A stretch of 64,000 nucleotides of DNA, taken from positions 17,929,223 to 17,993,222 of the forward strand of contig NC_088301.1 in NCBI RefSeq assembly GCF_032854445.1. The letters are read 5' to 3'. The DNA is from Liolophura sinensis. Lineage: Eukaryota; Mollusca; Polyplacophora; Chitonida; Chitonidae. The notes under the pieces were generated by a model. The model was not told where the DNA came from. It did not search any database and was given only the letters and a program-made list of their open reading frames with translations. Positions 29,301 through 59,066 of the stretch are shown in pieces. Numbering within the stretch: the first letter of the stretch is position 1; every line of letters begins with the position of its first letter. The translations under genes and the position numbers were made by a program.

Positions 29301-32300
29301 GGATGTGGTCATGGAGACATTTGTTCATATTTATTTGTATATTCCCCCACACTCAGTCCAGCCTTACTACCCAGGGGCATTTGTGGTAAATTTTGCTTGG
29401 GAGCTCTTTGTGCTGTCTAACATTCATGACATTGTTGCTTACGTCATCATTTTGGAGTCATTTGTATGCACAAATTGGAGAGAGTGCTTTGAAGGTTGGC
29501 AGCGTTAAACATTTACAGGAGTTGATTCAAAGAGATACAAAGGGGTATCACAGTCTCTCTTGTAAAGTTCAGTATATACTGTTATTAATACATATACATC
29601 ATACTCTAAATCTTTCAATTTGTTCAGCCGCTAAAGCACTTTTTTCAGTGGAATTTATGCATATAATTATTACAAAAATGATGCTGAAAATGATTTATAT
29701 TCTTTTGGAACATTTAATTAATGACTATATTGGAGAACATGAATTATGGCCTTTGTTATTGTAGATAACGTAGACTTGTTTGTGGGTTTGATGAGTGAAA
29801 ACCCTCTACCTGGCTCTAAGTTGGGCCCCACCCTGATGTGTATGCTGGTTGATCAGTTCAAGAAACTCCGCTCTGGCGACAGGTAAGATAATGCATGTCA
29901 AAAACACCTGTCAATGTCATCAGATTTGATCAGAAAGTTAGTACTACGTGTATGAGCACATCATGCCACAGAAATCATGTTTAAGCAACAATATGACCTC
30001 TACCCTTACAGTAGTTAGATTTATATGGCGGTATGCCGTGAAGTATTCGTTTTAATGATATTTTGAAAAGCAGGGGGTCAAATCTTCTTCAGCAGAGCAA
30101 CTTTTGTTAATTTCAGGATTTTGATTGTGCATACATCGAAACATGAAAAAAAAATTGATAAATTAACTGAAACTTTAGTTGTAACCTCGTCCATACCACT
30201 ATTTGAGCTAGATGTACAGAACATGTAGACATACAATATATTCAGATATTCAATTTGTAAAATTCTTTACACAGATTACCACTTAAAGGTAGCTGTTGCA
30301 TTTTTATCATGCATCGAACACGTAGCATTTGTCATGCATCGTAAGAAGGGGTAAGAGATGAAAACCACTTTGAAAAGCTGTTGCAAGGCAGACTGTCTCA
30401 TGACCTACACCAGTATGATGTGGTTTATACTGGCATTTGTATCGTATCTGTTCTCTCAGCTCTAAGTCTGGGCATAGTCTAAAGGATAAAAAATAAGAAC
30501 TGTATTGTGGTTGCTTGTGCAGTTAGGATAGTCCACAACTGAACAGTTCACTGGTTGAGCTGTGTCGTAATATGACTGAAAAGTTGTTGAGTATGACGTT
30601 AAACCCCAAGCACTCACTTACTGACTGGTTGAGCTAGTGTCATCGTAATTAATTTAAACTGAGTGCATTTTTATGTGTTAATAGCATGATGATTCAGTGA
30701 GGCAGCATTTCAAGTACCAGTGTATGTCAGTCAGTATTGTAGAATCTTAAAGCAAACAGTCTCCAAATATGATAGCTGAACTGTTAATATGTTAAAAGGA
30801 CATCAACATACATGTGAACAAGTACATGTGCTGTAGCTCTGTACAAGGCATGAGTAAACTCCCACTGGCTTTCCTCTGTTCGACTTGCTCTCAAGACTGT
30901 TCTTTTATCACTCCAAGTGAAATCATTTACATACATGTACATTTATGGAACTGGGAATTATGTTTTTGCACAAAACTGAAAAGCGGAGAGCCAGTCTGAT
31001 ATAATTTACATGTATGCGTGTACATGTTGTTGCTCTGTACAGAACATTTATTTGTCTGTTCGGTCTCAGGGCTGTTCATTGGATGCCAGATAACATGAGA
31101 TAGTGTGTACTAGGTTGTGTGTCAATTAAAGGCAAAGAACACGGTAACATTAAGTATATGCCAGATGAAAGACCATCAGACATTGTCCACAAAAATAGTT
31201 GTATTTATTTTTTTAGATTACTGAGTAAAATATATTTAAACCTTTGGATGGTAGCCTTTTCCGACCATGTTGGGACCAGTGACGTTTTTCTCACAAACGC
31301 ACATAAACTGCTAGATGTCATAATTCTAAATGCACATACATATAGATCACGGAATGAACCTTGAAATGAACTGTTTCCGGTAAAAAGTAAGGATGTGACG
31401 TCACTCATATCTTCTGAGTCATTACAGGCCACCGTAGAATCTGAATTTTAAAACCATTTAACTCGGTTGGAAAAATTGTAAAAAAAATATATTAAAATTT
31501 TTTTGTGGACAGTGTTTAATGATCTTCCATCAGATACATTCTTCCTTTTAGTGTTTTCTTTGCCTTGCTTTTATGTCGAATATAAAGTCCCATTCAGCTA
31601 CAGGAACATGCAATGTAAGAGATAACCAGAAATCTTCATATATATATATATGTATATGTACATGTTTATGGTTGTGTTGTGTGTAGGTTTTGGTACGAGA
31701 ACCCTGGTGTATTCAGCCCTGCCCAGCTTGTGCAGATCAAACACTCCTCTCTCTCATCGGTCATCTGTCAGAGCAGTGACAGTATTGAGGAGATCCAGAG
31801 CGACGTCTTCCACATGGCACACCACCCCCAGGATTACCTCTCTTGCTCTAGGATACCCAAACTTGATCTTAAACTTTGGGCTGACTGCTGTGAAGGTTTG
31901 TGTCATTTTAGTTGTTCCCAAAGAAGTCGTCACAAATTCCATGTATTGGTTTTGCTGTTAAGTAGGTTTTGTGAATTCAGCTTCATCAGTCTGTAATTGT
32001 TTTACTGGGGGAATAACCTGAGTTAGTTAGATGACAAATGATCTTATTGTCCTTCTCTGTGGAACCTTTATGACGATTGTCTATTGATATTTTGGCAAGT
32101 ATTAGCATGACGCTGACAATTTAGTGATCTCTCATGTAACAAGGCAACCGGCATAATATGTGACTTGTCATTTCTTTAAGGCCATATAAGCATTGTCCAG
32201 CCATGATGGTACCATGACAAGGAATCTTGATCAGATTGTACTGTACGCCCATTATTCAGGTACAATGGAACATGATCCGACCGTGGTGGGCCCACCATAC

Positions 32301-40303: not shown

Positions 40304-41632
40304 TTATGCAGGATGCATAGCCCTGACATCAACGCCATGGAAAGTTTTATAATGTCGTACGAGGCTGGTTTTGTGCTTGAATGTTTGAACACACAGAGAG
40401 CAGTCAAACTCTTTCATCCCATCATGAACCTCCATGTGCTTGAGTAGCCCATCACGTCGCGTGAATTTTTTATCACATAACTGACATGGGTGTATCTTAG
40501 CTTGTGTGTGAATTCTCATATGCCGTGAAATGGCGGCATTGTGGGTGAACGTTTTCCCGCACTCATTACACTTGTATGGGCGCTCACCGGTGTGAGTCCT
40601 CTCGTGGTGACGAAGCCCCGCGGACTCGCGAAATGTTTTTGGACACCTGGGGCACTTGTGAGTTTTGAAGCCTGTGTGGATCTTCATGTGTTTCTGGAAG
40701 TACGTGTTGCTGAGGACCTTCCCACAAACCGAACACTCCGTAGACCCTTTTGCCTTTGAGCGTTTCTCATATTTTCGTAGCCAAACTTTTGGATCATCCT
40801 GTGGAATCACTTTTTCAGAGTTTTTCAAGGCCGTTATGTTGGACTTGCCACTTCCCATACAGAGATAACACGGCTCGCGAGTTTTGCCGGGGAAGTTTTG
40901 TTTTCGTTTGTTCCACTTTCGCTCGCAAATTTTTTGACTGAATGTGTTATGTACTTTGAAAACATGTCCTCTGAGAGAGGGCATGTTGTTTACTTCCTTA
41001 CCACAGATAGCACACTGAAAAGGTTTCACGCCCGGGTGTTGTTTCATCATATGATCTTCCCAAGCGACATCCGCTGTGAATTCAGAGTCGCATACAACAC
41101 AGGACGCGCACAGATAACAGCACACTTCATCCGCAGGTACAGCTGATGGAACTGACCTCGCTTCCAAACATCCACTACCCTTCACAACAGACTGAGGAGA
41201 GGACTTAAACGAGCTGGACGCGTCATTGTGTTCCAGCGCCTTTGTCTGTGGACTTGATGCTAAGCCAATTAACTCCCTTGCAATGGCCTCCATCTGGGAA
41301 GACTCTGAGTGTAAAGAGTGTGAGGTGGACTCATCCTGAAAATCGGACTGAAAGTCGTTGACGGAGTTCTCATCGCCACTTTCATCCGGTGTGGTTGCGA
41401 GATCAGACTCAGGCTTGGCACTCTCCACATGTGTCTTGGCATGCTGTTGGAAGTCCGGGAAGCTCGCAAAGTCTTTCTCGCAGACTTTACAGGAGAGGCG
41501 TAACGATGACGCAAGAGCGTTTGGGATGGTGACCTCACTTAGCTCTGGCATGTTGTCCTTCATTGAGATAGTCAGGACTTGTACTGTACACAGCTCTGTT
41601 ACCGGACACACTTCCCTCTCCTGGGGAACAGT
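40304..41632 (-). CDS. C2H2 zinc-finger protein, coding exon 2 (eight fingers)
   Basis: 443 codons including the stop. The frame enters phase 0 at acceptor TGTTGTAG and begins TVPQEREVCPVTELC; there is no ATG before residue MKDN, so an upstream exon is needed. Residues numbered on the joined 493-aa protein: pre-finger block about 65-98; finger 1 (CKVC...H) 99-119; an acidic, Ser-rich stretch; fingers 2 and 3 about 229-279; CXXCXGXG (CYLCMGSG) 306-313; short finger with 11 residues between Cys and His about 351-370; then four regular fingers to about residue 483, one joined by TGERPY. A nuclear, sequence-specific DNA-binding role is inferred from the family. No KRAB, BTB, SCAN or ZAD domain is visible. 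It resembles the protein at 56537-58510. Confidence 0.93.
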   Translation of the reverse strand, partial: TVPQEREVCPVTELCTVQVLTISMKDNMPELSEVTIPNALASSLRLSCKVCEKDFASFPDFQQHAKTHVESAKPESDLATTPDESGDENSVNDFQSDFQDESTSHSLHSESSQMEAIARELIGLASSPQTKALEHNDASSSFKSSPQSVVKGSGCLEARSVPSAVPADEVCCYLCASCVVCDSEFTADVAWEDHMMKQHPGVKPFQCAICGKEVNNMPSLRGHVFKVHNTFSQKICERKWNKRKQNFPGKTREPCYLCMGSGKSNITALKNSEKVIPQDDPKVWLRKYEKRSKAKGSTECSVCGKVLSNTYFQKHMKIHTGFKTHKCPRCPKTFRESAGLRHHERTHTGERPYKCNECGKTFTHNAAISRHMRIHTQAKIHPCQLCDKKFTRRDGLLKHMEVHDGMKEFDCSLCVQTFKHKTSLVRHYKTFHGVDVRAMHPA

Positions 41633-41684
41633 CTACAACACAAAATGTTGATGGAATGATCTAGGGATTAAGAAAGGATGAACA

Positions 41685-41908
41685 TATTTATTTATTTAAC
41701 TGACTGATGTTTTATGCCATACTCAAGAATATTTCACTATGGTGTCAGCCAGCATTATCATGGTAGAAAACTTTGCAGAGCCCGGAGAAAACCATCCGCA
41801 GGTTGTTGCAAGACCTTCCCACATACGGTTGGATAGGAAGCCAGCATGAGCGCTGGGTCATTGCCCCCATGCTGGCGTGCTCACCCCCTTGACCAGGGAG
41901 CCATGACA
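41685..41908 (-). repeat. SINE-A copy
   Basis: Reverse-complement copy: tail TTTATTTATTTAAC at the left, GCCATACTCAAGAATATTTC, body, and the head reading GCCATGACAAG at the right. About 80 percent alike to the intact copies. Confidence 0.88.
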
Positions 41909-42008
41909 AGTATGATAAAACACACACACACAAGGTCCATGTTAAATGTATAGATCTACATGTAACAGGGAACACCAACCTTTGGGTACTTGTTTATTTC
42001 ATGATAAG

Positions 42009-42358
42009 AACGGATAGCACAGTTGGTAGAGCGTCCGCTTTGGGACCGGTAGATCCAGGGTAAATCCTTGATCGAGTCACACCTAAGACTTTAAAACACC
42101 TCGCTTGGCGTTCAGCATGAAGGGGATAGTGCAACGACTGGTTGACCCGTATCAGTATAATGGCTCGGGCGGGGAGGCTTACTTGCCTTCGGTAAGTCGT
42201 CTCAGTGAAGCAGCATTAAAATAAAAGAGCGGTGGAAATCCGTCCTGCAACAAAGGAGGCACATACGCGTACACGCACCCTAATGATTCCTTCGTCGTCA
42301 TATGATTGAAAAATTGTTGAGTACGACGTTAAACCCCAAGCACTCACTCACTCACTCA
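42009..42358 (+). repeat. SINE-B copy 1
   Basis: tRNA-like head GATAGCACAGTTGGTAGAGC, body and tail GTTAAACCCCAAGCACTCAC. ATAAGAAC before it recurs after it as ATAATAAGAAC, a likely target duplication. Confidence 0.93.
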
Positions 42359-42825
42359 TAATAAGAACACCTTTACTTCACTCGATCCATCATTCAGATA
42401 TAGATCCTCCCCAATACAATCACAGCCTCACGTCTACACATACATGCAGCTGTCAGTGGTTCAGCCCAAGCGTAAGGTTTAGAGGTTTCTCAGGTATATG
42501 ATCATGTAAATAGCAACCAGCAGCAGTTTTCTCCAGGAATTCAGCCACCAGTAAGCCTGACTGCTATAATATTCATGTAATTTAACAGGATTTCAGGTGA
42601 ACTTAATAAAATAAAACACTCAAGCAAATATATACCTATTTCTAAAGTGGAAACTGGAAGACATAGCACCTAATCATTTTTATGCACGTACATGCATGTA
42701 TCCTTGCAGTCTGGATCCTAGATCTGTTTACAGCAAATGCAGCTCTTAAAGAAAATGTTTGCTGAAATAAATATTCTGTACCCTATCACTCTGCTCGAAT
42801 TTTGAATTTAATTTCAACACTGGTT

Positions 42826-42957
42826 TGACTTGTTTGATTCAAAAGTTTAAATGGCTGGGTTACTGTTGAACAGTGGTTTTATTTTAGTATTGATGCTGGC
42901 TTTGACAATGTTACATTTCAGGTATTTTTATTGGGAATCTGTGCATACCAAGTGTAA
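42826..42957 (-). repeat. R3 dispersed repeat, copy a
   Basis: AGTTTAAATGGCTGGGTTAC, TGTTGAACAGTGGTTTTATT and GACAATGTTACATTTCAGGT match the R3 copies at 52.8 and 62.1-62.6 kb. SINE-B copy 2 interrupts the region directly to its right, and further R3-like sequence (GCTAGCTTTGGGCTAGAC; CTTCCACGGGGACAATTTCA) resumes at 43355-43525. Confidence 0.7.
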
Positions 42958-42985
42958 GGTACTGTTCCAGCCGTTATTTTAGAGA

Positions 42986-43347
42986 GACCGGCCCGGATAG
43001 CACAGTTTGTAGAGCGTCCGCTTCGGGACCGGTAGATCCAGGATCAATCCTTGTTCGAGTCACAGCTAAGACTTTAAAAGAGGAAGTTGTAACTTCCTCG
43101 CTTGGCATTCGGCATGAAGGGGATAGTGCAATGACTGGTTGACCCATATCAGTATAATGGTTCGGGCGGGGTGGCTTACTTGCCTTTGGTAAGTCGTCTC
43201 AGTGAAGCAGCACTAAATAAAAGAGCGGTGGAAATCCGTCCTGCAAAAAGGAGGCATATTACACGTACACGCACCCTAAGGATTCATTTGTCGTCATATG
43301 ACTGAAAAATTGTTGAGTACGACGTTAAACCCCAAGCACTCACTCGC
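42986..43347 (+). repeat. SINE-B copy 2, inserted in R3
   Basis: Full-length copy from GACCGGCCCGGATAGCACAG to CAAGCACTCACTCGC, flanked by perfect 11-bp repeats TATTTTAGAGA at 42975-42985 and 43348-43358. Confidence 0.95.
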
Positions 43348-43626
43348 TATTTTAGAGAAATTGTCCTCATTGATCTAGGTTACAACGCTTGGTGTTACAT
43401 AGTTATCGACCAGCTAGCTTTGGGCTAGACTTAGCTCAGCTAATATGGGACACTACGCACGATAACATAGCACCCAGCATCTGTTTATACACAGGCTTCC
43501 ACGGGGACAATTTCAGATGATCTTATTAGTATAAAAACTTACACAAATAGCACGTAATCATTTCTATATCTACATACATGTATCCTCCAATCCAAATATT
43601 AAATCTGCACAACTGGAGTTGTAGCG

Positions 43627-44433
43627 CGGACATAAAGCTGTACTGAATGTACACGTACCTGCTGTATGTAGTGGACAATAAAGCCGTACTGTACACATCT
43701 GATGTGTTTATGTATAATGGACATAGAGCTGTACTGTACGTACATGTATCTGCTGTGTACAGTGGACATAAAGCCGTACTGTGTGCATCTGTTGTTTATA
43801 GTGGACATAAAGCCACTCTGCACATATCTGCTGTGTACAGTGGACATAAAGCCGTACTGCAATCATCTGCTGTGTATAGTGGACATAAAGCTACACTGTG
43901 TGCATCTGTTGTTTATAGTGGACATAAAGCCGTACTGCACGTATCTGCTGTGTACAGTGGACATAAAGCTGTACTGTATGTATCTGCTGTGTATAGTGAA
44001 CACAAAGCTGTACTGTACGCATCTGCTGTGTATAGTGGACATAAAGCTGTACTGTATGTATCTGATGTGTACAGCGGACATAAAGCCGTAATGTATGTAT
44101 CTGCTGTGTATAGTGGGCATAAAGCCGTACCGTACGCATCTGCTGTGTAATGTGGAGATAAAGCTGTACTGTGCGCATCTGCTGTGTATAGTGGACATAA
44201 AGCCGTACTGTACGCATCTGCTGTGTATAGTGGACATAAAGACGTACTGCACGTATTTGCTGTGTACAGTGGACATAAAGCCGTACTGTATGCATCTGCT
44301 GTGTATAGTGGACATAAAGCTGTACTGTACGCATCTGCTGTGTATAGTGGTCATAAAGCCGTACTGTATGTATCTGCTGTGTATAGTGGACATAAAGCTT
44401 TACTGAATGTATCTGCTGTGTATAGTGGACATA
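43627..44433. repeat. 39-bp minisatellite, about 20 copies
   Basis: Unit CTGCTGTGTATAGTGGACAT followed by AAAGCCGTACTGTACGCAT, with C/T variants. The 39-bp period is a multiple of three, so frames stay open on both strands (up to 202 codons of a 13-residue repeat). No start, splice or domain evidence supports coding. Confidence 0.95.
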
Positions 44434-44640
44434 GGAAACTTGGTAATCAGGGCCTGTATTTATCAAACATTTTAAGACATAAGTCACAAATTCAAACATG
44501 ACTACAATTAAAAAGTTTTGCCCTAGAACGTTTAAATTTTTTACACTGATTTTTACTACAGAACAATGTACTATCTACAATTTGGGTTTTCTGCTTTCCT
44601 GAATTTGTCCTTTTATGGAGTTACAATTGATGACTTACAA

Positions 44641-44728
44641 TGTAACCCACAACCATACTCTCACTAGTGAGAGGCTCCTGAGTTAATGTGCCGCGCTGGC
44701 GTGCTAACCACCTCACCACTAAGGCCTT
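44641..44728 (-). repeat. SINE-A head fragment
   Basis: Reverse complement of the tRNA-like 5' part: CTCACTAGTGAGAGGCTCCT and GGCGTGCTAACCACCTCACC. The 3' part is missing. Confidence 0.8.
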
Positions 44729-44871
44729 ATTTCCAATTTTATGGAAACTGTCATAAGTGTTTACAATCTGAAACTTTTCGCTTTTAGAATGTAAAAAAAG
44801 GCAAAGCTTCCTTAATATCAGTAGGTGAAAAGCAACAGATCCCCTAAAGACAATACTAAAAACAAGAAAAA

Positions 44872-46670
44872 CTAGAATGGATCTGCGAATAGCAGATCCT
44901 AGGCCGGGATCCCGGATCGGATCGATGACGTTTTCCCTTATTTGTCCTTTGAATGGTGACACAGATCGAAGATTTTCAGCACAGATAGAGTACGTGTGTA
45001 GCGCTTTCCACTCAGTGATGTTTAGGTTTACAGCTGTAACGGTTTTTTTTCTCACCAGACCTCCACATATGTTGAAAAATTGAGCTTTTTCGCATTTTGA
45101 TTGCAATTGGCGGCAAAACTATACGTCGCCATCAAGAAATAAGTCCAGATTCATGATCAGGATGTCAAAGTACGTCGGGTACCATGCTTACAATGCCCGT
45201 GCCTTTATCGTGGTCACAAATGCATTGAAAATGCATCATATAACATGGGGACGTCGAAGAGCAAAATACAGCAAATCGGCCTTTGGACAATATTTGAAGT
45301 ACTGGAACTCCCACATTTATTGACACACTTTAATGATTTTCCGCACGCCTAGAGTACCCAAAAATCCCTTTGTACTCAGTCATTTTCAGCTCCACCTCTG
45401 CAGCAGTCTTGTGTCACGTCACCTCCAAACATGGGCGAAAATTGCACTTTTTCGCACTTTCATGGCAACTGGCGACAAAACTGTGCGTCGGAGAAAGGAA
45501 AAAGCACCAAATTCGTCCTCAGAACATCCAACACGCCTAGCAGCCTGCTTAAAATCTTGAAAGTGACAACATTTTCATCGCCTGACAAATTGCCAAACCT
45601 GGGATCGAACTCTGACATGACTAACACGCGACAGCGGTAAGAGAAAAGAAAGAAAGAAGAAAATTCATAGTGTGTACTTTTATGTCTCAATCCACGACCT
45701 GCCATGCACAGACTCACTGCTCTACTGATATCTAGGCCGTTGTCCGAAAGTCCACACCTGGACCAGGGCACATGTCCATATCTGTCAATCACCCTGACCT
45801 AGTTAGCGTACAGTAAACAAGACACGGTCTGCTCAAAACAAAGCCAACTTTTACAGGCCCACGTCGTTTGCTGTTGTAGTTAGATCTCTTCGCCATCTAA
45901 TAGAGTACTGGAGTTAGATGGAAACTGGAATCAATGTCATCCTACAACCGTTTCGGGAGATCACGGACAGTGTAGGCAAAAGCATCAGGCCAAATACTAC
46001 AAATCCAGTCCATTCCCCATCTAACTCCATGTTAAAGCAATAGGATTCCCATCTTTTTCTAAACAAAAACGGTGTTGTTTTTTAAACGCTTCTAGCGAGA
46101 AAACTATTAATCGGAGCTCAAATCCGTTGACGAATGATCGAAAGAGCGTGTCTTGAACTACATTTTCATGCAATTTGCACATTTCTAGCTGCCTTAGTTC
46201 TCGATTAAAACGCCATTGAAATTACGTAATTTTTTGAGTTTTTTGCTTATATCTCAAAAAGTTACACAGATATCAAAAAAATACAAGCAGATTCGGAATC
46301 AGCAGCTCGAGATACATCAGAATACGTTGAGAACGATTGAACTTTGAGAACTTTTTGTGACGTCACAAATTCGACCAATGACGAACTTCCAGAATTTTGA
46401 CCGGAAGTGAACCATTTTCGCAAACTTTAAAGAACTCGTGACCTACTAGCTGCATGTCAAATTTGAAATCGATCAGTTAAGTGGTTCTGGAGAAGAAGAT
46501 TTTTAAAAGTTTTACACAAAATCCAATATGGCGGCCGAACCACGTGACATAGCAAAAAAATGGAGAATTTGTCCCGAGATATTCACCGCCAAAATATGTG
46601 TGCAAAATTTGGGATCTGTATGTTGTACGGTGAAAAAGTTTCCTTGCTAACAAACTCTGTGAAAAAAAAA
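44872..46670 (-). mobile_element. Helitron-like unit 1 (chimeric interior)
   Basis: On the - strand the 3' end reads hairpin (stem GGATCTGC, 5-nt loop), ATT, then CTAG and T, fitting the Helitron rule of a short hairpin just before CTRR. The 5' end (right) follows (ATT)n and a T-run, starting near TCACAGAGTTTGTTAGC. From about 45660 to 46670 it matches units 2-4. From 44940 to 45660 it carries unrelated sequence holding an internal duplication. No Rep/helicase coding is present, so it is non-autonomous. Confidence 0.7.
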
Positions 46671-46679
46671 TAATAATAA

Positions 46680-47955
46680 CTAGAATGGATCTGCGAATAG
46701 CAGATCCTAGGCCGGGATCCCGGATCGGATCGATGACGTTTTCCCCTTCATGTTCTGTGTTCGAAGGACACATGTTCCACATACACGGCTTTCAAAGTTT
46801 CCATGCGACCTTACACCGTTTGTCACTGAGGCAGTCGGCCGGTCATTTGCATTCCCTCGAATAGATCGGCGAACTTAATGAAGTTAGGCTATGCCCAGTG
46901 AAAAACGGTCGTTCCTTGGGAGACTTAGCCCGCTATTTGTAAGAAATAACGCAAAAACACGACCAGTGTAACAGCAAGTTTGTACATTCACATCTCAATC
47001 CACGACACGCCATGCACAGACTCACGGCTCTCATGATAGCTCGGCCATCAATAGAAAGCCCGCACTTGGGCCACGGCACATGTCCATATCTGTCAATTAC
47101 CCTGGCCTGTTTAACGTGTAGTAAAGAGGACGAGGTCTACGCAAAACAAAGCTAACTTTCACAGTTGCATGCCGTTTACTGTTGTAGTTAGATCTCTACG
47201 CCATCTAATATAGTACTGTATAGCTGAATGTCATCCTACAACGGTTTCGGGAGATCACGGACAGTGTAGCCGAAAGCATCAGGTCAAATACTACAAATCC
47301 AGTCCATTCCCCATCTAACTCCATGTTAAAGCAATAGGATTCCCATCTTTTTCTAAACTAAAACGGTGTTGTTTTTTAAACGCTTCTAGCGAGAAAACTT
47401 TTAATCGGAGCTCAAATCCGTTGACGAATGATCGAAAGAGCGTGTCTTGAACTACATTTTCATGCAATTTGCACATTTCTAACTGCCATAGTTCTCGATT
47501 AAAACGCCATTGAAATTACGTAATTTTTTTAGTTTTTTGCTCATATCTCAAAAAGTTACACAGATATGCAAAAAATACAACCAGATTCGAAATCAGCAGC
47601 TCAAGATACATCAGAATTCGTTCAGAACAAATGAACTTTAAGAACTTTTTGTGACGTCATAAATTCGACCAATGGCGAGCTTCTAGAGTTTTGATCGGAA
47701 GTGAACCATTTTCGCAAACTTTAAAGAACTCATGACCTACTAGTTGGATGTTAAATTTGACAATGATCGCTTCAGTGGTTCTGGAGAAGAAGATTTTTAA
47801 AGATTATACACAAAATCCAATATGGCGGCCGAACCACGTGACATAGCCAAAAAAAAAAAAATATACCCCTAGAAAATTTCCGCTAGATTATGTGTGCAAA
47901 ATTTTGAACTTCTATGTTGAACGGTGTTTGAGTTCTGCTGCTAACAAAATCGAAA
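46680..47955 (-). mobile_element. Helitron-like unit 2
   Basis: 1305 bp from its CTAG to that of unit 3. Same terminal hairpin and GGGATCCC palindrome as unit 1, the same 5' end before a T-run and (ATT)n. Highly similar to units 3 and 4 along its whole length. Carries TGACGTCA at 47652-47659 and CACGTG at 47835-47840. It has no open frame of note. Confidence 0.72.
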
Positions 47956-47984
47956 AAAAAAAATAATAATAATAATAATAATAA

Positions 47985-49258
47985 CTAGAATGGATCTGCG
48001 AATAGCAGATCCTAGGCCGGGATCCCGGATCGGATCGATGACGTTTTCCCCTTCATGTTCTGTGTTCGAAGAACACATGTTCCACATACACGGCTTTCAA
48101 AGTTTCCATGCGACCTTACACCGTTTGTCACTGAGGCAGTCGGCCGGTCATTTGCATTCCCGTGAATAGATCGGCGAACTTAATGAAGTTAGGCTATGCC
48201 TAGTGAAAAACGGTCGTTCCTTGGCAGACTTAGCCCGATATTTGTAAGAAATAACGCAAAAACACGACCAGTGTAACAGCAAGTTTGTACATTCACATCT
48301 CAATCCACGACACGCCATGCACAGACTCACGGCTCTCATGATAGCTCGGCCATCAATAGAAAGCCTGCACTTGGGCCACGGCACATGTCCATATCTGTCA
48401 ATTACCCTGGCCTGTTTAACGTGTAGTAAAGAGGACGAGGTCTACGCAAAACAAAGCTAACTTTCACAGTTGCATGCCGTTTACTGTTGTAGTTAGATCT
48501 CTACGCCATCTAATATAGTGCTGTATAGCTGAATGTCATCCTACAACGGTTTCGGGAGATCACGGACAGTGTAGCCGAAAGCATCAGGTCAAACACTACA
48601 AATCCAGTCCATTCCCCTTCTAACTCCATGTTAAAGCAATAGGATTCCCATCTTTTTCTAAACAAAAACGGTGTTGTTTTTTAAACGCTTCTAGCGAGAA
48701 AACTTTTAATCGGAGCTCAAATCCGTTGACGAATGATCGAAAGAGCGTGTCTTGAACTACATTTTCATGCAATTTGCACATTTCTAGCTGCCATAGTTCT
48801 CGATTAAAACGCCATTGAAATTACGTAATTTTTTTACTTTTTTGCTCATATCTCAAAAAGTTACACAGATATGCAAAAAATACAAGCAGATTCGGAATCA
48901 GCAGCTCAAGATACATCAGAATTTGTTCAGAACAAATGAACTTTAAGAACTGTTTGTGACGTCATAAATTCGACCAATGGCGAGCTTCTAGAGTTTTTAT
49001 CGGAAGTGAACCATTTTCGCAAACTTTGAAGAACTCCTGACCTACTAGTTGCATGTCAAATTTGACAATGATCGGTTCAGTGGTTCTGGAGAAGAAGATT
49101 TTTAAAGATTATACACAAAATCCAATATGGCGGCCGAACCACGTGACATAGCCAAAAAAAAAAAAATATACCCCTAGAAAATTTCCGCTAGATTATGTGT
49201 GCAAAATTTTGAACTTCTATGTTGAACGGTGTTGGAGTTCTGCTGCTAACAAAATCGA
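47985..49258 (-). mobile_element. Helitron-like unit 3
   Basis: 1302 bp to the next CTAG. Nearly identical to unit 2, including the shared CATAAATTCG variant after the CRE-like site (48957-48964). Units 2 and 3 are therefore the most recent duplicates in the array. Confidence 0.72.
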
Positions 49259-49286
49259 AAAAAAAAAATAATAATAATAATAATAA

Positions 49287-50580
49287 CTAGAATGGATCTG
49301 CGAATAGCAGATCCTAGGCCGGGATCCCGGATCGGATCGATGACGTTTTTATCTTCATGTTCTGTGTTCAAAGGACACATGTTCCACATACACGGCTTTC
49401 AAAGTTACCTTGCGACCTTACACCGTTTGTCACTGAGGCAGTCGGCCGGTCATTTGCATTCCCTCGAATAGATCGGCGACCTTAATCATGCTACGCTATG
49501 GCCAGTGAAAACCGGTCGTTCTTTGGCAGATTTAGCCCGCTTTTTCTAAGAAATAAGGCAAAAACACGACCAGTGTAACAGCAGGTTTGTACATTCACAT
49601 CTCAATCAACGACCTGCCATGCACAGACTCACTGCTCCCCTGATAGCTCGGCAATCGTTGGAAAGTCAGCACTTGCACCAGTTCACATGTCCATATCTGT
49701 TAATCACCCTGGACTGTTTAACGTATAGTAAAGAGCACGAGGTGTGCGCAAAACAAAGCTAACTTTTACAGGTCCACGTCGTTTGCTGTTGTAGTTAGAT
49801 CTCTACGCCATCTAACAGAGTACTGGAGTTAGATGGGAACTGGAATCAATGTCATCCTACAACCGTTTCGGGAGATCACGGACAGTGTAGCCAAAAGCAT
49901 CAGGTCAAATACTACAAACCCAGTCCAATCCCCATCTAACTCAATGTTAAAGCAATAGGATTCCCATCTTTTTCTAAACAAAAAACGGTGTTGTCATTTA
50001 AACGCTTCTAGCGAAAAAACTATTAATCGGAGCTCAAATCCGTTGACGAATGCTCGAAAGAGCATGTCTTGTTTTACAATTTCGTGCAGGTTGCACACCT
50101 CTAGCTGCCATAGTTCTTGAGTTACAGGTCATTAAACTTACGTAAGTTTTTTGAGTTTTTTGCTTATATCTCAAAAAGTTACACAGATATACAAAAAATA
50201 CAAGCAGATTCAGAATCAGCAGCTCAAGATACATCAGAATACGTTAAGAACAATTGAACTTTGAGAACTTTTTGTGACGTCACAAATTCGACCAATGGCG
50301 AGCTTCCAGAGTTTTGATCGGAAGTAAACCATTTTCGCAAACTTTAAAGAACTCGTCACTTACTAGCTGCATGTCAAATTTGAAAACGATCGGTTCAGTG
50401 GTTCTGGAGAAGAAGATTTTTAAAGATTTTACACAAAATCCAATATGGCGGCCGAACCACGTGACATAAGAAAAAAACAAAAAATATACCCCTGGAAAAT
50501 CTCCGCCAGATTATGTGTGCAAAATTTGAGACCTCTATGTTGAACGGTGTTAAAGTTCTGCTGCTCACAAAGTCGGTGAA
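49287..50580 (-). mobile_element. Helitron-like unit 4
   Basis: Same ends as units 1-3; interior a little more diverged (ACAATTTCGTGCAGGTTGCA, and TTGAGTTACAGGTCATTAAA in place of the units 1-3 reading). It keeps TGACGTCA (50275-50282) and CACGTG (50458-50463). Its 5' side passes into (AAT)n and then the hairpin repeats. Confidence 0.72.
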
Positions 50581-50607
50581 AAAAAAATAATAATAATAAT
50601 AATAATA

Positions 50608-50789
50608 ATAATAAGAAAAAACAGAACGATAACAATAGGGATCCCGTTCGGGAGAACGGGATCCCTAATAATAAGAAAAAACAGAACAATAACAATAGGG
50701 ATCCCGTTCCGGAAGAACGGGATCCCTAATAATAAGAAAAAACAGAACAATAACAATAGGGATCCCGTTCCGGAAGAACGGGATCCCTA
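50608..50789. repeat. Three 60-61 bp hairpin repeats
   Basis: Each copy is TAATAATAAGAAAAAACAGA, then ACAATAACAAT and a perfect 12-bp stem GGGATCCCGTTC with a 4-5 nt loop. Hairpins lie at 50638-50665, 50698-50726 and 50759-50787. The copies differ only in the loop (GGGA versus CGGAA) and one base in the arm. The TAATAA start continues the microsatellite that ends unit 4. Confidence 0.95.
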
Positions 50790-50991
50790 ATTAAAATTAC
50801 TATTATATACTATGTACCTGGCGCCTGTTTTACAAACTGCACACGATACATGCATTTAACTTCCAAGGCGACCAGTGCTGGAGGCATTACATCGCCATGG
50901 TAGTTACATGTACTTGATAGCGCTTGTGAAACGGACCCCTGATACATAAATGTACAGCACCTTTTTTAAAGTAAATAAAAACACTCCTTAC

Positions 50992-51144
50992 CACATCCCT
51001 TTCATGAGTAACGGCTGTCTCCCCACTGGCTGGATTTGGAAGTGTCTGGGGAATCGTCTGTTCCCCATCAACAAAGACAATTTCATTCGGAATACCAAAA
51101 TTGTCATTTGCTTGGAAAAGTTGGATGAAAGCAGAGTGGTCCAT
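50992..51144 (-). CDS. C2H2 zinc-finger protein, coding exon 1 (start exon)
   Basis: ATG at 51144-51142 opens 51 codons (MDHSAFIQLFQANDNFGIPN ... AVTHERDV) ending in phase 0 at donor GTAAGG, which matches the phase 0 acceptor at 41633-41634. The frame has a TGA 21 bp before the ATG, supporting this start. An acceptor (GCTTTGCAG) at 51172-51180 suggests a 27-bp 5' UTR segment preceded by a non-coding exon further right. The exon has no known domain. Joining is by inference from phase and signal quality; no transcript was available. Confidence 0.72.
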
Positions 51145-51467
51145 TGTACACGTACTGGTATCTCAAGTGACCTGCAAAGCAAATTAACATTTTCTTGATA
51201 TTTATGTACACTGTATTCATTTGAACTTTTGCCCCTTAAGGCTTCCAGTTGGTGGAAGACAAGTCAAGGACCATCTCAAAATGTAACAAACTTACTGCTG
51301 CAGACAAAGGTAGCAAGAAATCATGAAACAATTCTGTACTGCAAAATTTACATAGATGTTACATAATCACTAGGAAGCCTGAAATTGGGAATACTCAACA
51401 GAAATTTTTTTCAGTTTCCTAAAGTCGCCTGCATCGACCCACACAATTCACCTAGTCCAATGAATTT

Positions 51468-51698
51468 GATTTATTGGATTGGTGTTATACACTGTACTCG
51501 AAAATATTACTTTTGATTCTGGATGGTGTCCAGCAATGTGGGAGGAAACCAGACAGAGCCTGGAGGAATTAATCCCCCAACCATTTACAGATTGCTGAAA
51601 GACCTTCCCACGTATGACCGGAACGGAAGCCAGGATGGCACTGATGAAAGGCTCTTAGGTCAATCTGCTGCACTAGCACGGTAACCACTAAAGGCCAC
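51468..51698 (-). repeat. SINE-A copy, diverged
   Basis: Reverse complement with tail side TGATTTATTGGATTGGTGTT, ACTGTACTCGAAAATATTAC, body CCTTCCCACGTATGACCGGA and head GTAACCACTAAAGGCCACAA. Confidence 0.85.
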
Positions 51699-52246
51699 AA
51701 CCACATCCAATGAAAATACATGCACAGTATGACAAGTTTACACCATTGCATATGATTTGTAGAATTTGACATATCCTACTGTGTGTAAACACACTGTCTT
51801 TCTTGTATCAGAAGTCTGGTTGTACGTAATGTTCATTTAGCCTGTTCTGTATTCATTTGAAGAGTCCATCTTACAAATCCTACCATTTCAAAGCCAAATT
51901 CCAAGTGTGAAAACATGTACATGTACATTAATACATGTAAATGTACAAAGTGAGATGCATGTACACATATCTGTCCCAGGTATCCCTCCATCAAACTATA
52001 CAAGCCATGACAGCTGGGGAATCTGCAAAATTCTCCGTCAAAAGCCGGGCTTGAACCTGCACCTCATGTATTACCTGTATATATGCTTTAGCAAGTAATG
52101 TTTCCTGGCAGAATACATGACATGACCACATCCACCCTTCTGTTCACCTTAACCGACTGTCTTCTCGAGGGTTCAACTATAGGTACAGGTACCAAACATA
52201 TAGCTTAACAAACACTGATTGCAATACCCCATCATGTATACCTGTC

Positions 52247-52517
52247 GGGGCCTCTGTGGTTCAGTTGGTTAGCGCCCTAGCGCAACGTAATGACCCAGGA
52301 GCCTCTCACCAATGCAGACACTGTGAGTTCAAGTCCAGTTCATGACGGCTTCCTCTCCGGCCGTACGTTGGAAGGTCTACCCGCAACCTGCGGATGGTCG
52401 TGGATTTCCCCCGGGCTCTGCCCGGTTTCCTTCCACTATAATGCTGGCCGCCCTCATATAAGTGAAAAATTCTTGAGTACGGCGTAAAACACCAATCAAA
52501 TAAATAAATAAATAAAT
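52247..52517 (+). repeat. SINE-A copy, full length
   Basis: Complete head GGGGCCTCTGTGGTTCAGTT, B box GAGTTCAAGTCC, the CCCCCGGGCTCTGCCCGG stem and AAATAAATAAATAAAT tail. ATACCTG precedes it and follows it, a likely target duplication. Confidence 0.95.
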
Positions 52518-52778
52518 GCATACCTGCCCTCGATGTTTAGGGCCCGGTTGTTCAGAAGTGCATTAGCAATTATGCCCAGTATTAACTTTAGTCTGGACTA
52601 TTAGTTTTGTCATTAGTTTAGTATTAGGCCAAGACTGGTATTAAGATATAAGCGTGGCTTAATTTTTAATATGCTTTTGAACAATCTGCATTTCTGCATT
52701 TTCACAGACTTTCTGACCTAGCCTAAAGCTGGCTGGTCAATTTTTACTGGTCAATTTGAATGTAACCTGGAACCCTAC

Positions 52779-52905
52779 CGTACATTTGGTATGCACCTAT
52801 CGGCCAAAATGTCAAAGCCATCATTGGTAACCCATCTTTAAACAGTAATCCAGCCATTTAAACTTTCAAATCAATCAAGCCAAAACAACTTCTGCAATGT
52901 TCGAA
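52779..52905 (+). repeat. R3 dispersed repeat, copy b
   Basis: AATGTCAAAGCCATCATTGG, CAGTAATCCAGCCATTTAAA and CTTTCAAATCAATCAAGCCA match the R3 copy at 62142-62250. Confidence 0.7.
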
Positions 52906-55459
52906 ATTCTAACGTGTGCCAAGTCCTGGCAAGGCAGGGTTTGCGCTGTTATCTTTAGTTAATTGTCCGTGTAGATTACATTAAAGCGAAGCTGGGCATT
53001 ACCATAGAAACGTGCAGCTTAGCTTTGGGCTAGGCTATACACTCAACCAGAGATTCTATCTCTAACCTTCTTGACATACAGTCAAAAACATTACAACTAT
53101 TAACATATTCTACAAAGAACACGAAGCAGAATAGCTACGTGTACTGTGTACATGTGGGTTCCTACAGCAATAGTACTAACATGGCCAATAACAATGCCCT
53201 TCACTGTACAAAGGCAGCCTTAAGTTACTTTTTCTCTGTTCTACTGACATGGTTAAACCAAGGGTAATGGATACGGGTCTCAAAAGCTAAATCACGTCTA
53301 GTACTGGCCCAAAAATCCGGTCTAAGGATTGCTTAAATTTACTGATACGCGGGGACCGCTGGCCATTACCCAACCGTGACAATATTAAAGTTCACAGTCG
53401 ATTCTTTGGCTAGTCTACTACATGTATGTGACTACTATATCAGTATCTGATTTTTATGATCAATATTTTTTTTTTCCTTTTTATCACTCGGACATGTGTC
53501 AGTGGAATTCATCTGATTTGCATGCCCATTTCACTCAAGTGTGTAGCCTCATACTACTACAGTTACACAGTGTAGCCTACCCGCTAGTTTCATGATTTCG
53601 GTAAAATGTGCAGGAATATCACAAGTGTCTCTACACGAAACATTCTTTAGGTTTCACTATACTTTAGTCAGGAAATATAATGAAAAATTACTTCAAAATT
53701 AAAGAAAAAGAGCAGTAAAGCGTTTGTTTTAGGAGAAGATAAATTTACCTGGATTGTGAATTGGACCGCAAACCGACAATTGGGTTGCATTAAAATAGCA
53801 AACTTAAAAGTGTTTTCGGACGTTTATGTCAATTTTTTTTATTTAGACAAAATTTATTAAAAGATTACTTATATTCTTTGGACTTCTATAAATTTTTCTA
53901 ACTGAAGGTTAGTTAATCTGGACGTTTTATTTTGGTCTAATTGACTAATACAATAGTCCATTTCCACTAAAAACCTGCGTTATTAAATACGTAACGCGTA
54001 ACTCGCTTTACCAGCACACGTTTCCGGAAGTTATCGGGTTTGTGGAAACCATTTCGGATGGCAGTGAATGTCAAGTTATTCTCTACTTTTCCACTGGCAT
54101 TTCTCATGTAACAGCCCCCCAGATACATATCTCGTCATTTTGGTGTGGATGTGGAACATTTTCAAGTAAGGTATGCTTGCTTTTCAATGAAATTAACCAC
54201 TTTATATCTCAACAAAATATGTTGTTGGATTTCCGACTGTTGACCCATTTTTTGCGTTATGTCACATGACCGTAATACGTGTATGTCATTTACGAAGTAT
54301 GACACTTCAAAATCACCTGATTCATGGAATTTACATTTTCCTGAAAAATGTAGGGTTTTGCAACACTTCTGTTTTGCACTGATAGCCTGCGTGTGGCAAG
54401 TGTGGACAATATTCATGTGATAGGTTTTGGCCTACAGTAGAAAATCTGTTCCGCTTGTACATCATAAGACTTTTTAACCAACCGCAACCAGCGTTAGGCC
54501 TAGCAAATAATTCATACCGAGAACATTTTGTACATAGTTATTTGTTCCTGTTAGTCATAAATTCATACCCAGATTGTTTGTACTCTGTCTGTGAATTAAA
54601 TACTATAGCATAAAGTTAAGAAACTGAACACTTCAAGTGACATTTGTTTTCATCTACCAGCTTCACATGACCACACTAGTATGAATTGTTTGTCAACTTC
54701 GTGTGATATGTTGGAATACGATTCCCGGGTGGCAGGTCTACATTTGCAACTGGAACAGCATACCAGTTTTGTGATACAAGGGAGATAACTGTCACATAGT
54801 GATGTTTTTTTTGGAGGGGGGTGGGGGGGTTGGATTAAAATCATGGCACAACACTCGGACACCTCCATGTTATGATTAGGGCAAAAAGTTAAAGCTACAT
54901 TGAAGTAATGAGAAAATTGACACGTTTAAATGAATTTCGCCCAATAACACCTGGGATACATGTGAAAACGTGATATATTGTGTGCATGTACCCACAATTT
55001 GAACAGAAGCAATATAAAACGTTGGGCTTAGAGAATAGCAGTAGGCCCTATACTTTCCTCTATGACTTCATCAGTAGTCATGCTATTTATTGTTAGATCT
55101 TAAGATTTTTAGCAGTAGATTTTAAGTGTCCGTCGGTACATTTAGGTAGGTCGTTCTGTCAGTTGACATGTCAGATTGTTGATATTCTACCATGGTGCTT
55201 GAAAGAAGACACCTTTTTCCTGGATATGATAGCGATTGCAGATTTGCACTCGTTATCAGGAAGCTGTAATCTGTGGACTGTGGTCACATATATATTTATG
55301 TATACATGTATATGTGTATTTATGAAATTTTTGTTCTTTGAAAATCATGTACACTATAAATATCTTGTTTACAAATTGACTCTGGTACAAAATTATTTAG
55401 ATACTGATTTGATTTTTGTTTCCACTCCATACTGCTACACAACAATTTTTCACTTTTAT

Positions 55460-55665
55460 TGATTTATTTGATTAGTGTTTTACATCGTACTCAAGAATAT
55501 TTCACTTATACAGCGGTGGCCAGCACTATGGTGGGAAGAAACCAGGCAGAGCTCGGGGAACCCATGACCATCAGCATATTGCTGGCTGACCTTATCACTT
55601 ATGGCCCGAGAGAAAGCCAGCAGAAACTGAACTTGATCTCACAGCAACGTCATTGGTGGCCTCCT
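55460..55665 (-). repeat. SINE-A copy, diverged
   Basis: Reverse complement: TGATTTATTTGATTAGTGTT, CATCGTACTCAAGAATATTT, then body to CAACGTCATTGGTGG. Head incomplete. Confidence 0.85.
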
Positions 55666-56032
55666 ATAACCTCCTCAGCTTAAGAGACCCCTTTTCATAT
55701 TAACAGTGACAGGAGTATCATCAGTATTATGCTGGATACTTGAATGACCGTGGGGTAAAGTTGCCGACAAACCAGATATGTATACTGTACTGGTGGAGAA
55801 CAAATGGTATTCAACGGACGTAAGATAGACCAAATGGTCAAAAGTGCACCATCCAATGTTTATTGTCATCGAGACCCCACAAGCGATGTCATGTCCAAGG
55901 CTGGCTTTGAAGCCACACCTCATGGGTTCCGACAGTTGAAAGGCATTCACATTTAACCACAAGACCTGAGGGCCTGCTACCCCTGGAACACTGTTTTAAT
56001 TGCAAGGAACTGCATTGCCAACACAAGTCAAT

Positions 56033-56404
56033 AATAGGGGAGTTTCGAGTTCGAACCCTTTCATCACCAAAGGCAAAAAAAAAAGGTCCACTGTATCATG
56101 TGACCTGTCAGAAATGTTAGCCAACTGTTGCGGGGTTACCTTTACTATAGCATGCTCGCCTGAAAACAGTTTCCTACAGATCGGTTTAGAGTAGACAAAC
56201 AACGGATGAAACTGAATATTTGTGAACTTGGAAAGCTTCTAAGGAAAAAAGAGATTTCATTTGTGTCTCTGGAATATGGTGAGATTAGTGATAAGTAATT
56301 TAATGTCTACAAAGGTTGCCTAACATTTTTCTTAACTCACATTATACAGGAGGACTGTTTTTACCTTCACTGACAAAGAGGTCTAACTCGAAACTCTCCT
56401 ATTG
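56033..56404. mobile_element. MITE-like element, copy 2
   Basis: About 372 bp with terminal inverted repeats: left AATAGGGGAGTTTCGAGTTC, right AACTCGAAACTCTCCTATT, 15 of the first 16 bases pairing. The interior matches 8157-8504 in TGTGACCTGTCAGAAATGTT (there TGATCTGTCAAAATGTT) and in the TGACAAAGAGG end. It ends 90 bp before the 5' UTR exon of the zinc-finger gene to its right. Confidence 0.78.
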
Positions 56405-56494
56405 TTGAAAGTGCATTATGTCTGTTTAGAACAATTGGTCATTGCTTGATTAACAGTCTGACAGTAAGAGCTATTTTACTGTATATCTTTTCAG

Positions 56495-56536
56495 ATCTAA
56501 GACACCATCTAAGATTGAATTTACATACATTGGAAG
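56495..56536 (+). other. 5' UTR segment of zinc-finger gene 2
   Basis: A strong acceptor (TATATCTTTTCAG) at 56482-56494 lies 42 bp before the ATG, so translation starts in the second or a later exon and the promoter is upstream. Confidence 0.65.
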
Positions 56537-58510
56537 ATGAACCAAGACATTGTGATGAGGGATCAGATTCAAGGAACTGAGCCAAATCAGCATCATCATC
56601 AACAACAACAAGAGGTTTACAACATGGATTTTTCTGAGTTAAAGACCATTTCATACGACACAACAGTGCATCAGCCTCCGGTTTATAGCCATGACAGTGC
56701 AGTGCAATTGATGTCCATGTCCAGCATGAACCCACCTACTGAGGAACCTAGCCTAAATGCTTCAGGCTGCTCTGCACTTGGACCTCAATCAGGGTTTGTG
56801 TTAGAACCGAGTATCCCCTCCCAGAATTCTGGATTGCCAGTCACTGGCGGAGACATGACTGCCCCAGGCTGTGAGAAAACCTTCACTCAGTCATTGCCTG
56901 TCAACTCAACCGACTTAACAACAAAAGCATCCATGAGTGGGGAAACAGGCCCAAGAAAAGAATTTTTGACTTCATCCTGGGATGAGTTTCAGGGTGTCAA
57001 TGGGAATACAGTTGCTGGTTCAGGAGGTACAGTAACAGAATCAAAGGTAGCATCCCTGAACAGGAGCATGGACGGAAGATTAACTGAAGATGCAATGGGC
57101 AGTTTTTTATCTGCACTGCAGTCAGCTCTGTCCCCTGGTGTTCCAGACTTGTCTACAATTTCAACAAAAAGTCTGAGACCCTCCACATTGGACTACCCTG
57201 ATGGGCTCTGTAATTTGCAACTGTTGACTTACACATCTGGAGAGGGCATCCCAAATGTCAAGCTGGTAACAGTAACAGATGCCATTTTGATATCAGTACA
57301 GTTTAAATGTAGACTTTGTGGGAAATCGTTTACATCCCCTGAGGCACTCTCATCTCACAGTAGGTGCCATACTTCAGATACTCAACCAGGGGATTTAGGA
57401 AAACCTGCTGGAAACCTCCCCCATGGTAGACCACCAATCAGTAGACAGATCCGGGAACTAGTGGATGGTATGGTGCCTCAAGCGTTCCATTCTGTGAATG
57501 CAGAAGGTCCATGTGAAGGAAAGCATAGCCAAGAAGGTGTAGAGGCCGAGGCTGCTGGAATAAACTCTGACTTGAATGATACAGAGAATCCAACAGGACG
57601 CCAACGCCATTGTCATATCTGTAACAAAATGTTCCCTAAAGATGAGCTTTGGCGGCATTTCTCAGAAACACACCTGGATTGTAAGGAGTGTCAGTGTTTT
57701 GTGTGTGGTAAGAAGATGAGGACAGACAAGGATCTACTGAGGCATATGATGTCCTTTCACACAGGCCTGAAGGAAGAAACTGTTTACCGATGTGCAGTTT
57801 GTGATAGAAATTTTGCTTCTGAACCCTTCTTGTTAAACCACATGCTACAGATACATCCAGACAAAGGGGACTTAGCATTAGCAAAATCTGACACAAAACA
57901 TTGTGGTTCTGCTGAAAAATTTTTAAAATCATCCTGTGCAAATTGTGAAGGGACAGGGGTGATTTCCAGTGGGAAGCATTCTTGTCGAATATGTAAGAAA
58001 GCACTCGGTGATTCTCGTATGCTGCAGAAACACATGTCGGAGCATTCAGAACAGACAATGTGCACTGTATGCCATAAATTGATTTTCCTCAAGTCTCTGC
58101 CTAAGCACATGATGCTCCACACCAAACCCAAGGCGTGGGAGTGCACCCAGTGTGACCGTGCTTACAGGGACAAGTGCGATCTGAGGAAGCACATGCGTAT
58201 CCACACTGGAGAGAAACCTTACACATGTGAAATCTGTAATAAGTCATTCGCGCACAGCAGCCAGTTGCCGCGCCATCTACGTACACACAGCGGAGAGAAG
58301 CCATACCAGTGTTCACTGTGTCAGAAGGTCTTCTCCAGGAAGTTTGGTTTGCAGCAGCATATGAGTCGCCATGCTGTTGGGAAAGCATTCAAGTGCAGTG
58401 ATTGTGGCAAAGAGTTTCGCGACCACAAAGGGTTAAAGAAACACAGCTTGAAACACAACCATATGCCGGAGCAGGCTGATGTCAGCGCTAACGAATCAGC
58501 TGGGCATTAA
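56537..58510 (+). CDS. C2H2 zinc-finger protein, 657 aa (ten fingers)
   Basis: Uninterrupted 658-codon frame, ATG after GGAAG. Residues 1-220 are Ser/Thr/Gln-rich and likely disordered. A pre-finger block (LCNLQLLTYTSG ... VTVTDA) lies about 224-257. Finger 1 is 256-278 (FKCRLCGKSF). A long linker follows, then fingers 2-4 from C359 on. An isolated CXXCXGXG (CANCEGTG) is at 467-474. Then come a finger from HSCRICKKA, a short finger with 11 residues between Cys and His (CTVCHKLIF), and four regular fingers joined partly by TGEKPY and SGEKPY, the last from C620. Probable nuclear DNA-binding protein; specificity unknown. Layout and several ungapped segments match the - strand gene at 40304-51144, so the two are probably paralogs. 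I do not recognise a vertebrate orthologue. Confidence 0.95.
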   Translation: MNQDIVMRDQIQGTEPNQHHHQQQQEVYNMDFSELKTISYDTTVHQPPVYSHDSAVQLMSMSSMNPPTEEPSLNASGCSALGPQSGFVLEPSIPSQNSGLPVTGGDMTAPGCEKTFTQSLPVNSTDLTTKASMSGETGPRKEFLTSSWDEFQGVNGNTVAGSGGTVTESKVASLNRSMDGRLTEDAMGSFLSALQSALSPGVPDLSTISTKSLRPSTLDYPDGLCNLQLLTYTSGEGIPNVKLVTVTDAILISVQFKCRLCGKSFTSPEALSSHSRCHTSDTQPGDLGKPAGNLPHGRPPISRQIRELVDGMVPQAFHSVNAEGPCEGKHSQEGVEAEAAGINSDLNDTENPTGRQRHCHICNKMFPKDELWRHFSETHLDCKECQCFVCGKKMRTDKDLLRHMMSFHTGLKEETVYRCAVCDRNFASEPFLLNHMLQIHPDKGDLALAKSDTKHCGSAEKFLKSSCANCEGTGVISSGKHSCRICKKALGDSRMLQKHMSEHSEQTMCTVCHKLIFLKSLPKHMMLHTKPKAWECTQCDRAYRDKCDLRKHMRIHTGEKPYTCEICNKSFAHSSQLPRHLRTHSGEKPYQCSLCQKVFSRKFGLQQHMSRHAVGKAFKCSDCGKEFRDHKGLKKHSLKHNHMPEQADVSANESAGH

Positions 58511-58563: not shown

Positions 58564-58569
58564 AATAAA
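58564..58569 (+). terminator. Polyadenylation signal AATAAA of zinc-finger gene 2
   Basis: AATAAA 54 bp after the stop codon and just before a T/G-rich stretch. A short 3' UTR is likely. Confidence 0.65.
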
Positions 58570-58698: not shown

Positions 58699-59066
58699 AC
58701 CGGCCCGGATAGCACAGTTGGTAGAGCGCCCGCTTCGGGACCGGTAGATCCAGGATCAATCCTTGATCGAGTCACACCTAAGACTTTAAAAGAGGAAGTT
58801 GTAACTTCCTTGCTTGGCGTTCAGCATGAAGAGGATAGTGCAGCGACTGGTTGACCCGTATCAGTATAATGGCTCGGGCGGGGCGGCTTACTTGCCTTCG
58901 GTAAGTCGTCTCAGTGAAGCAGCACTAAATAAAAGAGCGGTGGAAATCCGTCCTGCAACAAGGAAGCACATTATACGTACATGCACCCTAATGATTCCTT
59001 CGTCGTCATATGACTGAAAAATTGTTGAGTACGACGTTAAACCCCAAGCACTCACTCACTCACTCA
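58699..59066 (+). repeat. SINE-B copy 3, full length with target duplication
   Basis: From ACCGGCCCGGATAGCACAGT (A box) through GATCAATCCTTGATCGAGTC to (CACT)n. Perfect 12-bp duplication CCAAATGTACGC at 58687-58698 and 59067-59078. The best reference copy for this family. Confidence 0.96.

Follow-up and report, generated by a model that had tools for sequence, protein, structure and literature searches.

A head-to-head pair of C2H2 zinc-finger genes in the chiton Liolophura sinensis sharing a segment ahead of finger 1

In the KRAB and ZAD families of zinc-finger proteins an accessory N-terminal module is combined with an array of C2H2 fingers, and it is such modules (KRAB, ZAD, FiNZ) that decide much of how a C2H2 protein acts once it is bound to DNA. 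Here we describe two C2H2 genes from a stretch of 64,000 nucleotides (the window, to which all positions refer) of the chiton Liolophura sinensis (contig NC_088301.1, forward-strand positions 17,929,223 to 17,993,222); gene 1, on the minus strand, and gene 2, on the plus strand, are arranged head to head, and their products share a block of 34 residues which directly precedes finger 1. While ZAD uses four cysteines, the block has one conserved cysteine. At E up to 1, none of KRAB, ZAD, SCAN, BTB and PR/SET is among the Pfam-A families of the two proteins (19 and 18 families; gene 1 as its last exon only), nor does any of them match either block or the N-terminal exon of gene 1 at E up to 10.

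Among C2H2 families with accessory N-terminal modules, FiNZ of cyprinid fish appears, from the available extract of its description, to be closest in style. There, FiNZ is a glutamate-enriched N-terminal sequence of 28 residues present in about 700 zebrafish genes (PMC10547256, extract); like the block, it is short, conserved, placed before C2H2 fingers and unlike known domains. The block, however, has a hydrophobic composition, lies next to finger 1 and is seen in two genes, which would set it apart from FiNZ as described in that extract; glutamate makes up 1 and 2 of the 34 residues in the two blocks (counted by eye), a figure set against the FiNZ description. Lineage-specific C2H2 expansions have been described in cephalopods, where clusters were counted from a minimum size of 20 or 30 sequences (PMC12513265, extract); these are likewise lophotrochozoan C2H2 paralogues, but they form large clusters, whereas the chiton genes would be an old pair. 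C2H2 counts from oysters (PMC12111275, extract) serve as context only. Neither the block nor the gene pair is named in the titles or the first parts of the abstracts among the literature matches listed.

From the letters alone, the initial annotation had proposed that the two proteins align without gaps over 42 residues ending in finger 1, and this holds, with 14 of the 42 identical; the coordinates of both open reading frames were likewise correct, the frames ending at 40304 on the minus strand (stop codon included) and at 58510 on the plus strand. The common pattern it gave is accurate for LC-x2-Q-x-LT and for the P, VT and A that follow, but the conserved A is separated from the first Cys of finger 1 by eight residues, not seven. 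Ten of the 34 residues before this Cys are identical in gapless alignment (BLOSUM62 score +55). Anchored shuffles of one block gave a mean of -21.3 (standard deviation 11.7, maximum 34), none of 200,000 reaching 55; when both N-terminal regions up to the end of the block were shuffled without anchoring and the best 34-residue window was taken, the mean was 21.2 and the maximum 42, and none of 1,000 reached 55. Columns hydrophobic in both blocks number 15 of 34, against 8.0 expected (0 of 20,000 shuffles), and the hydrophobic fraction of the blocks is 0.47–0.50 versus 0.25–0.36 in four other non-finger stretches. Since the coincidence of hydrophobic columns goes beyond that of shuffles, the block is not an ordinary linker, and the similarity claimed by the annotation is above what chance gives for linker sequence by both measures. 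Block identity (29%) is about that of finger 1 as a whole (7 of 21, 33%), where five of the seven are the C, C, F, H, H core, and is above that of the non-core positions of finger 1 (2 of 16). At 7 of the 14 residues identical within the 42 the codons differ, as would fit old duplicates that selection has maintained. The block begins at residue 224 in gene 2 and at residue 65 in gene 1, adjoining finger 1 in both. The segment is real and constrained in the two paralogues, and the statistics for this are solid.

Both proteins belong to the C2H2 class, PF00096 giving 100.2 and 100.3 bits against a curated cut-off of 25.2 (E 2.9e-29 for gene 2 and 2.7e-29 for gene 1). Counted by pattern, there are ten fingers in gene 2 and eight in gene 1, all of the latter in its last coding exon, while PF00096 gives seven passing stretches in each. 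The order of parts is the same in both proteins: the block, an isolated finger 1, a spacer, middle fingers (two in gene 1, four in gene 2), and a short finger followed by four regular ones. It had been pointed out that both end in the same five-finger run, opened by a short finger in which 11 residues separate Cys from His; this is correct, but the run is weaker evidence than implied because its similarity is not register-specific. Three of the 18 fingers are short, counting the second finger of gene 2 (11 residues between Cys and His, H-x4-H; counted by eye). It speaks against common descent that the four regular fingers, identical at 42 of 106 positions in register (40%), give 26/78, 31/78, 18/50 and 16/50 (33, 40, 36 and 32%) at offsets of one or two fingers; the likeness of the regular fingers is close to that of any two finger arrays. 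Because a shift by one finger in one direction leaves these fingers as alike as they are in register, the block is the best evidence of paralogy, and it is this block, along with the short finger and the order in which the parts are arranged, that carries the case for a presumed common ancestor. BLASTP of the whole proteins aligns 435 positions at 25% identity (E 2e-43), a value raised by the fingers. A C-x2-C-x-G-[TS]-G motif occurs in the same place in both proteins, after the middle fingers, its distance to the short finger being 42 and 45 residues (57935–57958 on the plus strand; residues 306–313 of gene 1); no claim is made for it, as 57, 113, 85 and 331 of 1,000 shuffles reach it at widths of 8, 10, 12 and 16.

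We hold it to be somewhat probable that an old duplication of one ancestor gave rise to these two head-to-head C2H2 transcription-factor genes with their conserved block, possibly under a common promoter. One ancestral C2H2 gene would have been duplicated long ago, its copies now lying head to head, and the C-terminal finger run would bind DNA. The block may be a small, probably beta-type segment, either packed against finger 1 or serving as a contact surface for other proteins in dimerisation or cofactor recruitment (its beta character is read by eye from alternating hydrophobic residues, and the function we infer from there), and its role may be like that of KRAB, ZAD and FiNZ in other zinc-finger families. 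Both genes would be transcribed outward from one promoter at about 53.75–54.17 kb via untranslated first exons.

The coding sequence of gene 2 (56537–58510, in an open frame of 56519–58510) is unbroken for 657 codons plus stop from the first ATG after a plausible acceptor, and AATAAA is found at 58564, 54 bases past the stop codon. In gene 1, 13 residues of the last exon precede the block; since the likeness to gene 2 begins ahead of the first in-frame Met of this exon, gene 1 needs an exon upstream. A scan for donors in 41640–54399 (phase-0 ATG...GT frames of at least 20 codons, donor score at least 3.0) yielded two candidates, one of which lies in a minisatellite; the only non-repeat one is at 50992–51144. 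The exon so predicted (51171–50992) has a 27-nt leader, an ATG at 51144, 51 codons (51144–50992) and a phase-0 donor, gtaagg, compatible with the acceptor ahead of the last exon, which is also of phase 0 (tgttgtag/ACTGTT, or ccccag/GAGAGG 12 nt later). With it, the predicted protein of gene 1 would have 493 residues. The positions of all features are collected in Table 1.

Table 1. Positions of the two genes, their shared parts and the putative promoter in the window
Feature	Position	Strand	Remarks
Gene 1, last coding exon	40304..41632	-	open frame, 442 codons + stop
Gene 1, short finger + four regular fingers + tail + stop	40304..40735	-	
Gene 1, finger 1	41429..41491	-	
Gene 1, pre-finger block, 34 residues	41492..41593	-	
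Gene 1, coding intron, ~9.4 kb, mostly repeats (45669–50669 and others)	41633..50991	-	self-comparison
Gene 1, predicted second exon	50992..51171	-	splice sites; sole non-repeat candidate
Putative shared divergent promoter	53748..54171	.	repeat-free, CpG observed/expected 1.07–1.23, donors at edges, CCGGAAG
Gene 2, exon start to stop	56495..58510	+	acceptor ttttcag/56495; ATG 56537
Gene 2, pre-finger block, 34 residues	57206..57307	+	
Gene 2, finger 1	57308..57370	+	
Gene 2, short finger + four regular fingers	58061..58456	+	

If the predicted exon of gene 1 is accepted, the start codons of the divergent genes are 5,393 bp apart (56537 minus 51144), in agreement with the distance of about 5.4 kb given in the initial annotation. 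Acceptors lie 27 nt (gene 1) and 42 nt (gene 2) before the ATG; therefore, leader exons are to be expected upstream of both. Self-comparison at E 1e-8 found no repeat in 52912–55453 between the genes, and 500-bp windows starting at 53601, 53701 and 53801 have an observed/expected ratio of CpG of 1.21, 1.07 and 1.23, the median over 635 windows being 0.47. Those starting at 53801 and 53601 rank 11 and 14 of the 635; of the ten that rank higher, nine are in or overlap the repeat array in the intron of gene 1 and one starts at 62101. Donors point outward from the CpG-rich stretch on both sides: on the minus strand one at 53748, within the top 0.21% of GT sites, and on the plus strand two, at 54166 and 54171. 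CCGGAAG, a core to which ETS factors bind, is present at 54024 (6 in the window, plus strand). Bidirectional-promoter pairs are those with start sites within about 1 kb of each other on opposite strands; the CpG-rich stretch and the outward donors possibly fit one such putative divergent promoter with untranslated first exons.

Several observations weigh against the reading of one old duplication with a common promoter. As regards the promoter, the plus-strand donors are ordinary (scores 4.3 and 4.1) and rival donor-like sites are near, one on the plus strand at 53908 (3.8) and one on the minus strand at 54316, which would point back through the putative promoter and is as good as the donor of gene 1 itself (4.7 vs 4.4). 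CpG ratios above 1 occur in the window also outside promoters, in repeats, and the ratio is 0.75 in the last exon of gene 1 versus 0.33 in the coding sequence of gene 2, so that the unequal depletion does not suggest joint regulation. Together with the minus-strand site at 54316 and the 5.4 kb between the start codons, this depletion makes it quite possible that the genes have separate promoters and that their head-to-head layout is incidental; on the other side, the CpG-rich stretch midway between the genes is free of repeats and has donors directed to either side, and the acceptors just before both ATGs imply leader exons upstream. The unequal CpG depletion (40304–41632 versus 56537–58510) may mean different germline methylation.

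The statement of the initial annotation that no named domain has the pre-finger pattern has stood up, with no Pfam-A family and a single chance match in the PDB. Pfam-A gave zero families at E up to 10 for either 34-residue block and for the N-terminal exon of gene 1, NCBIfam gave for both proteins only unrelated families far below their cut-offs, and the profile of the block found one match among 177,635 distinct PDB sequences, a 16-residue stretch of UBE4B at E 1.7. When finger 1 was added to the profile, 289 PDB sequences matched; among the best 60 of these, 59 begin no earlier than profile position 41 (the first Cys of the finger being position 46), and the match of SALL4 (9sq4_C), also among the best 60, reaches back to position 27 (E 0.00027). 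Pfam models few of the non-finger regions of C2H2 proteins, and the finger content of both genes is ordinary; with Pfam-A lacking a model of the block, both genes could be members of an ancient metazoan zinc-finger family that has been described before and has named orthologues, in which the block is known but not modelled. We consider this rather unlikely, for no family stands out among the PDB matches: 99 PDB sequences match the gene 2 protein at E up to 1e-10, and the best 60 of the 99 do so on fingers only, from residue 496 up (ZNF568, Aart, PRDM9, CTCF, ZBTB proteins and others).

A second group of unfavourable observations concerns the block itself, which is carried by only two sequences seen. 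A third carrier was found neither in the window nor in three scans of viral contigs; the profile of the block, run against 2,889 six-frame segments of the window, returned its own two copies and a third segment at E 0.05, which is taken as chance. In the scan with 15 viral contigs, 14 match query residues 37–66 and one 43–64 (the block being 10–43), so that the matches cover finger 1 and no more than the final 7 residues of the block, and the 34 residues upstream of the Cys score negatively against both blocks in 15 of 15, partly from stop codons there. Fourteen of these contigs, from IMG/VR (L002–L015), carry near-identical copies of M(S/N)EFVCRVCGKSFDNRRSFHAHLKAHS, which is a single C2H2-like finger, and L001 has a similar one. 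AlphaFold2 gave a predicted local distance difference test score below 50 over residues 1–38 of a block construct (block 10–43) and over residues 1–260 of the whole protein (block 224–257), although its input was a two-row alignment and hence the lack of a confident fold says little. Furthermore, neither the sequence ahead of the block nor the spacer behind finger 1 is more alike in the two proteins than in shuffles.

A block without a role of its own, left from paralogue descent and retained solely to cap finger 1 on its N-terminal side, would agree with its position (it abuts finger 1, eight residues separating the conserved A from the Cys), with the two carriers and with the absence of a separate fold in the structure prediction. 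Yet because the N-terminal region and the spacer have lost their similarity, conservation of the block calls for selection, and the non-core positions of finger 1 are kept at 2 of 16 compared with 10 of 34 in the block, small numbers though these are; we think such a remnant unlikely. Only tentatively, and with more doubt than confidence, do we put forward a bolder proposal, namely that the block is an unnamed zinc-finger-associated module, a small beta-type interaction domain N-terminal to finger 1, which would define a C2H2 subfamily, lophotrochozoan or wider, with a founding pair still standing head to head on one promoter. That the blocks resemble each other by chance or by convergence of unrelated C2H2 genes is highly improbable: although at one of the offsets the regular fingers agree just as well as in register, not one anchored or unanchored shuffle reached the observed score, and in both proteins the block precedes finger 1 and a short finger opens the C-terminal run.

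The surroundings of the two genes are rich in repeats. In the intron of gene 1, a 39-bp minisatellite (43659–44433), whose period is a multiple of three and which is open in several frames on both strands, is a false-gene trap for programs that call open reading frames and was the source of the spurious exon candidate of gene 1. The same intron holds long repeated DNA (45669–50669 and 50606–50791) with GGGATCCCG-type palindromes, AT-rich runs and a 61-bp tandem unit, where the CpG ratio of 500-bp windows reaches 1.42. Copies of a further repeat with a tRNA-like head (by eye), which we take to resemble a molluscan short interspersed element, are located just downstream of gene 2 (58699–59066) and in the intron of gene 1 (42011–42358 and 42987–43348); despite this head, ARAGORN reported no tRNA in them. 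Elsewhere in the window, an open frame of 509 codons on the plus strand (27860–29389) matches animal haem peroxidase (PF03098, E 6.7e-142), a 76-bp tandem repeat (25.6 copies, 95% matches) occupies positions 1–1946 from the window edge, and Rfam gave zero matches to the window.

Without a third carrier, the two chiton genes are a new pair within a well-known class, one that has a segment of interest. If the block is truly a new accessory module outside vertebrates and insects, it would provide a handle on the little-studied zinc-finger genes of invertebrates.

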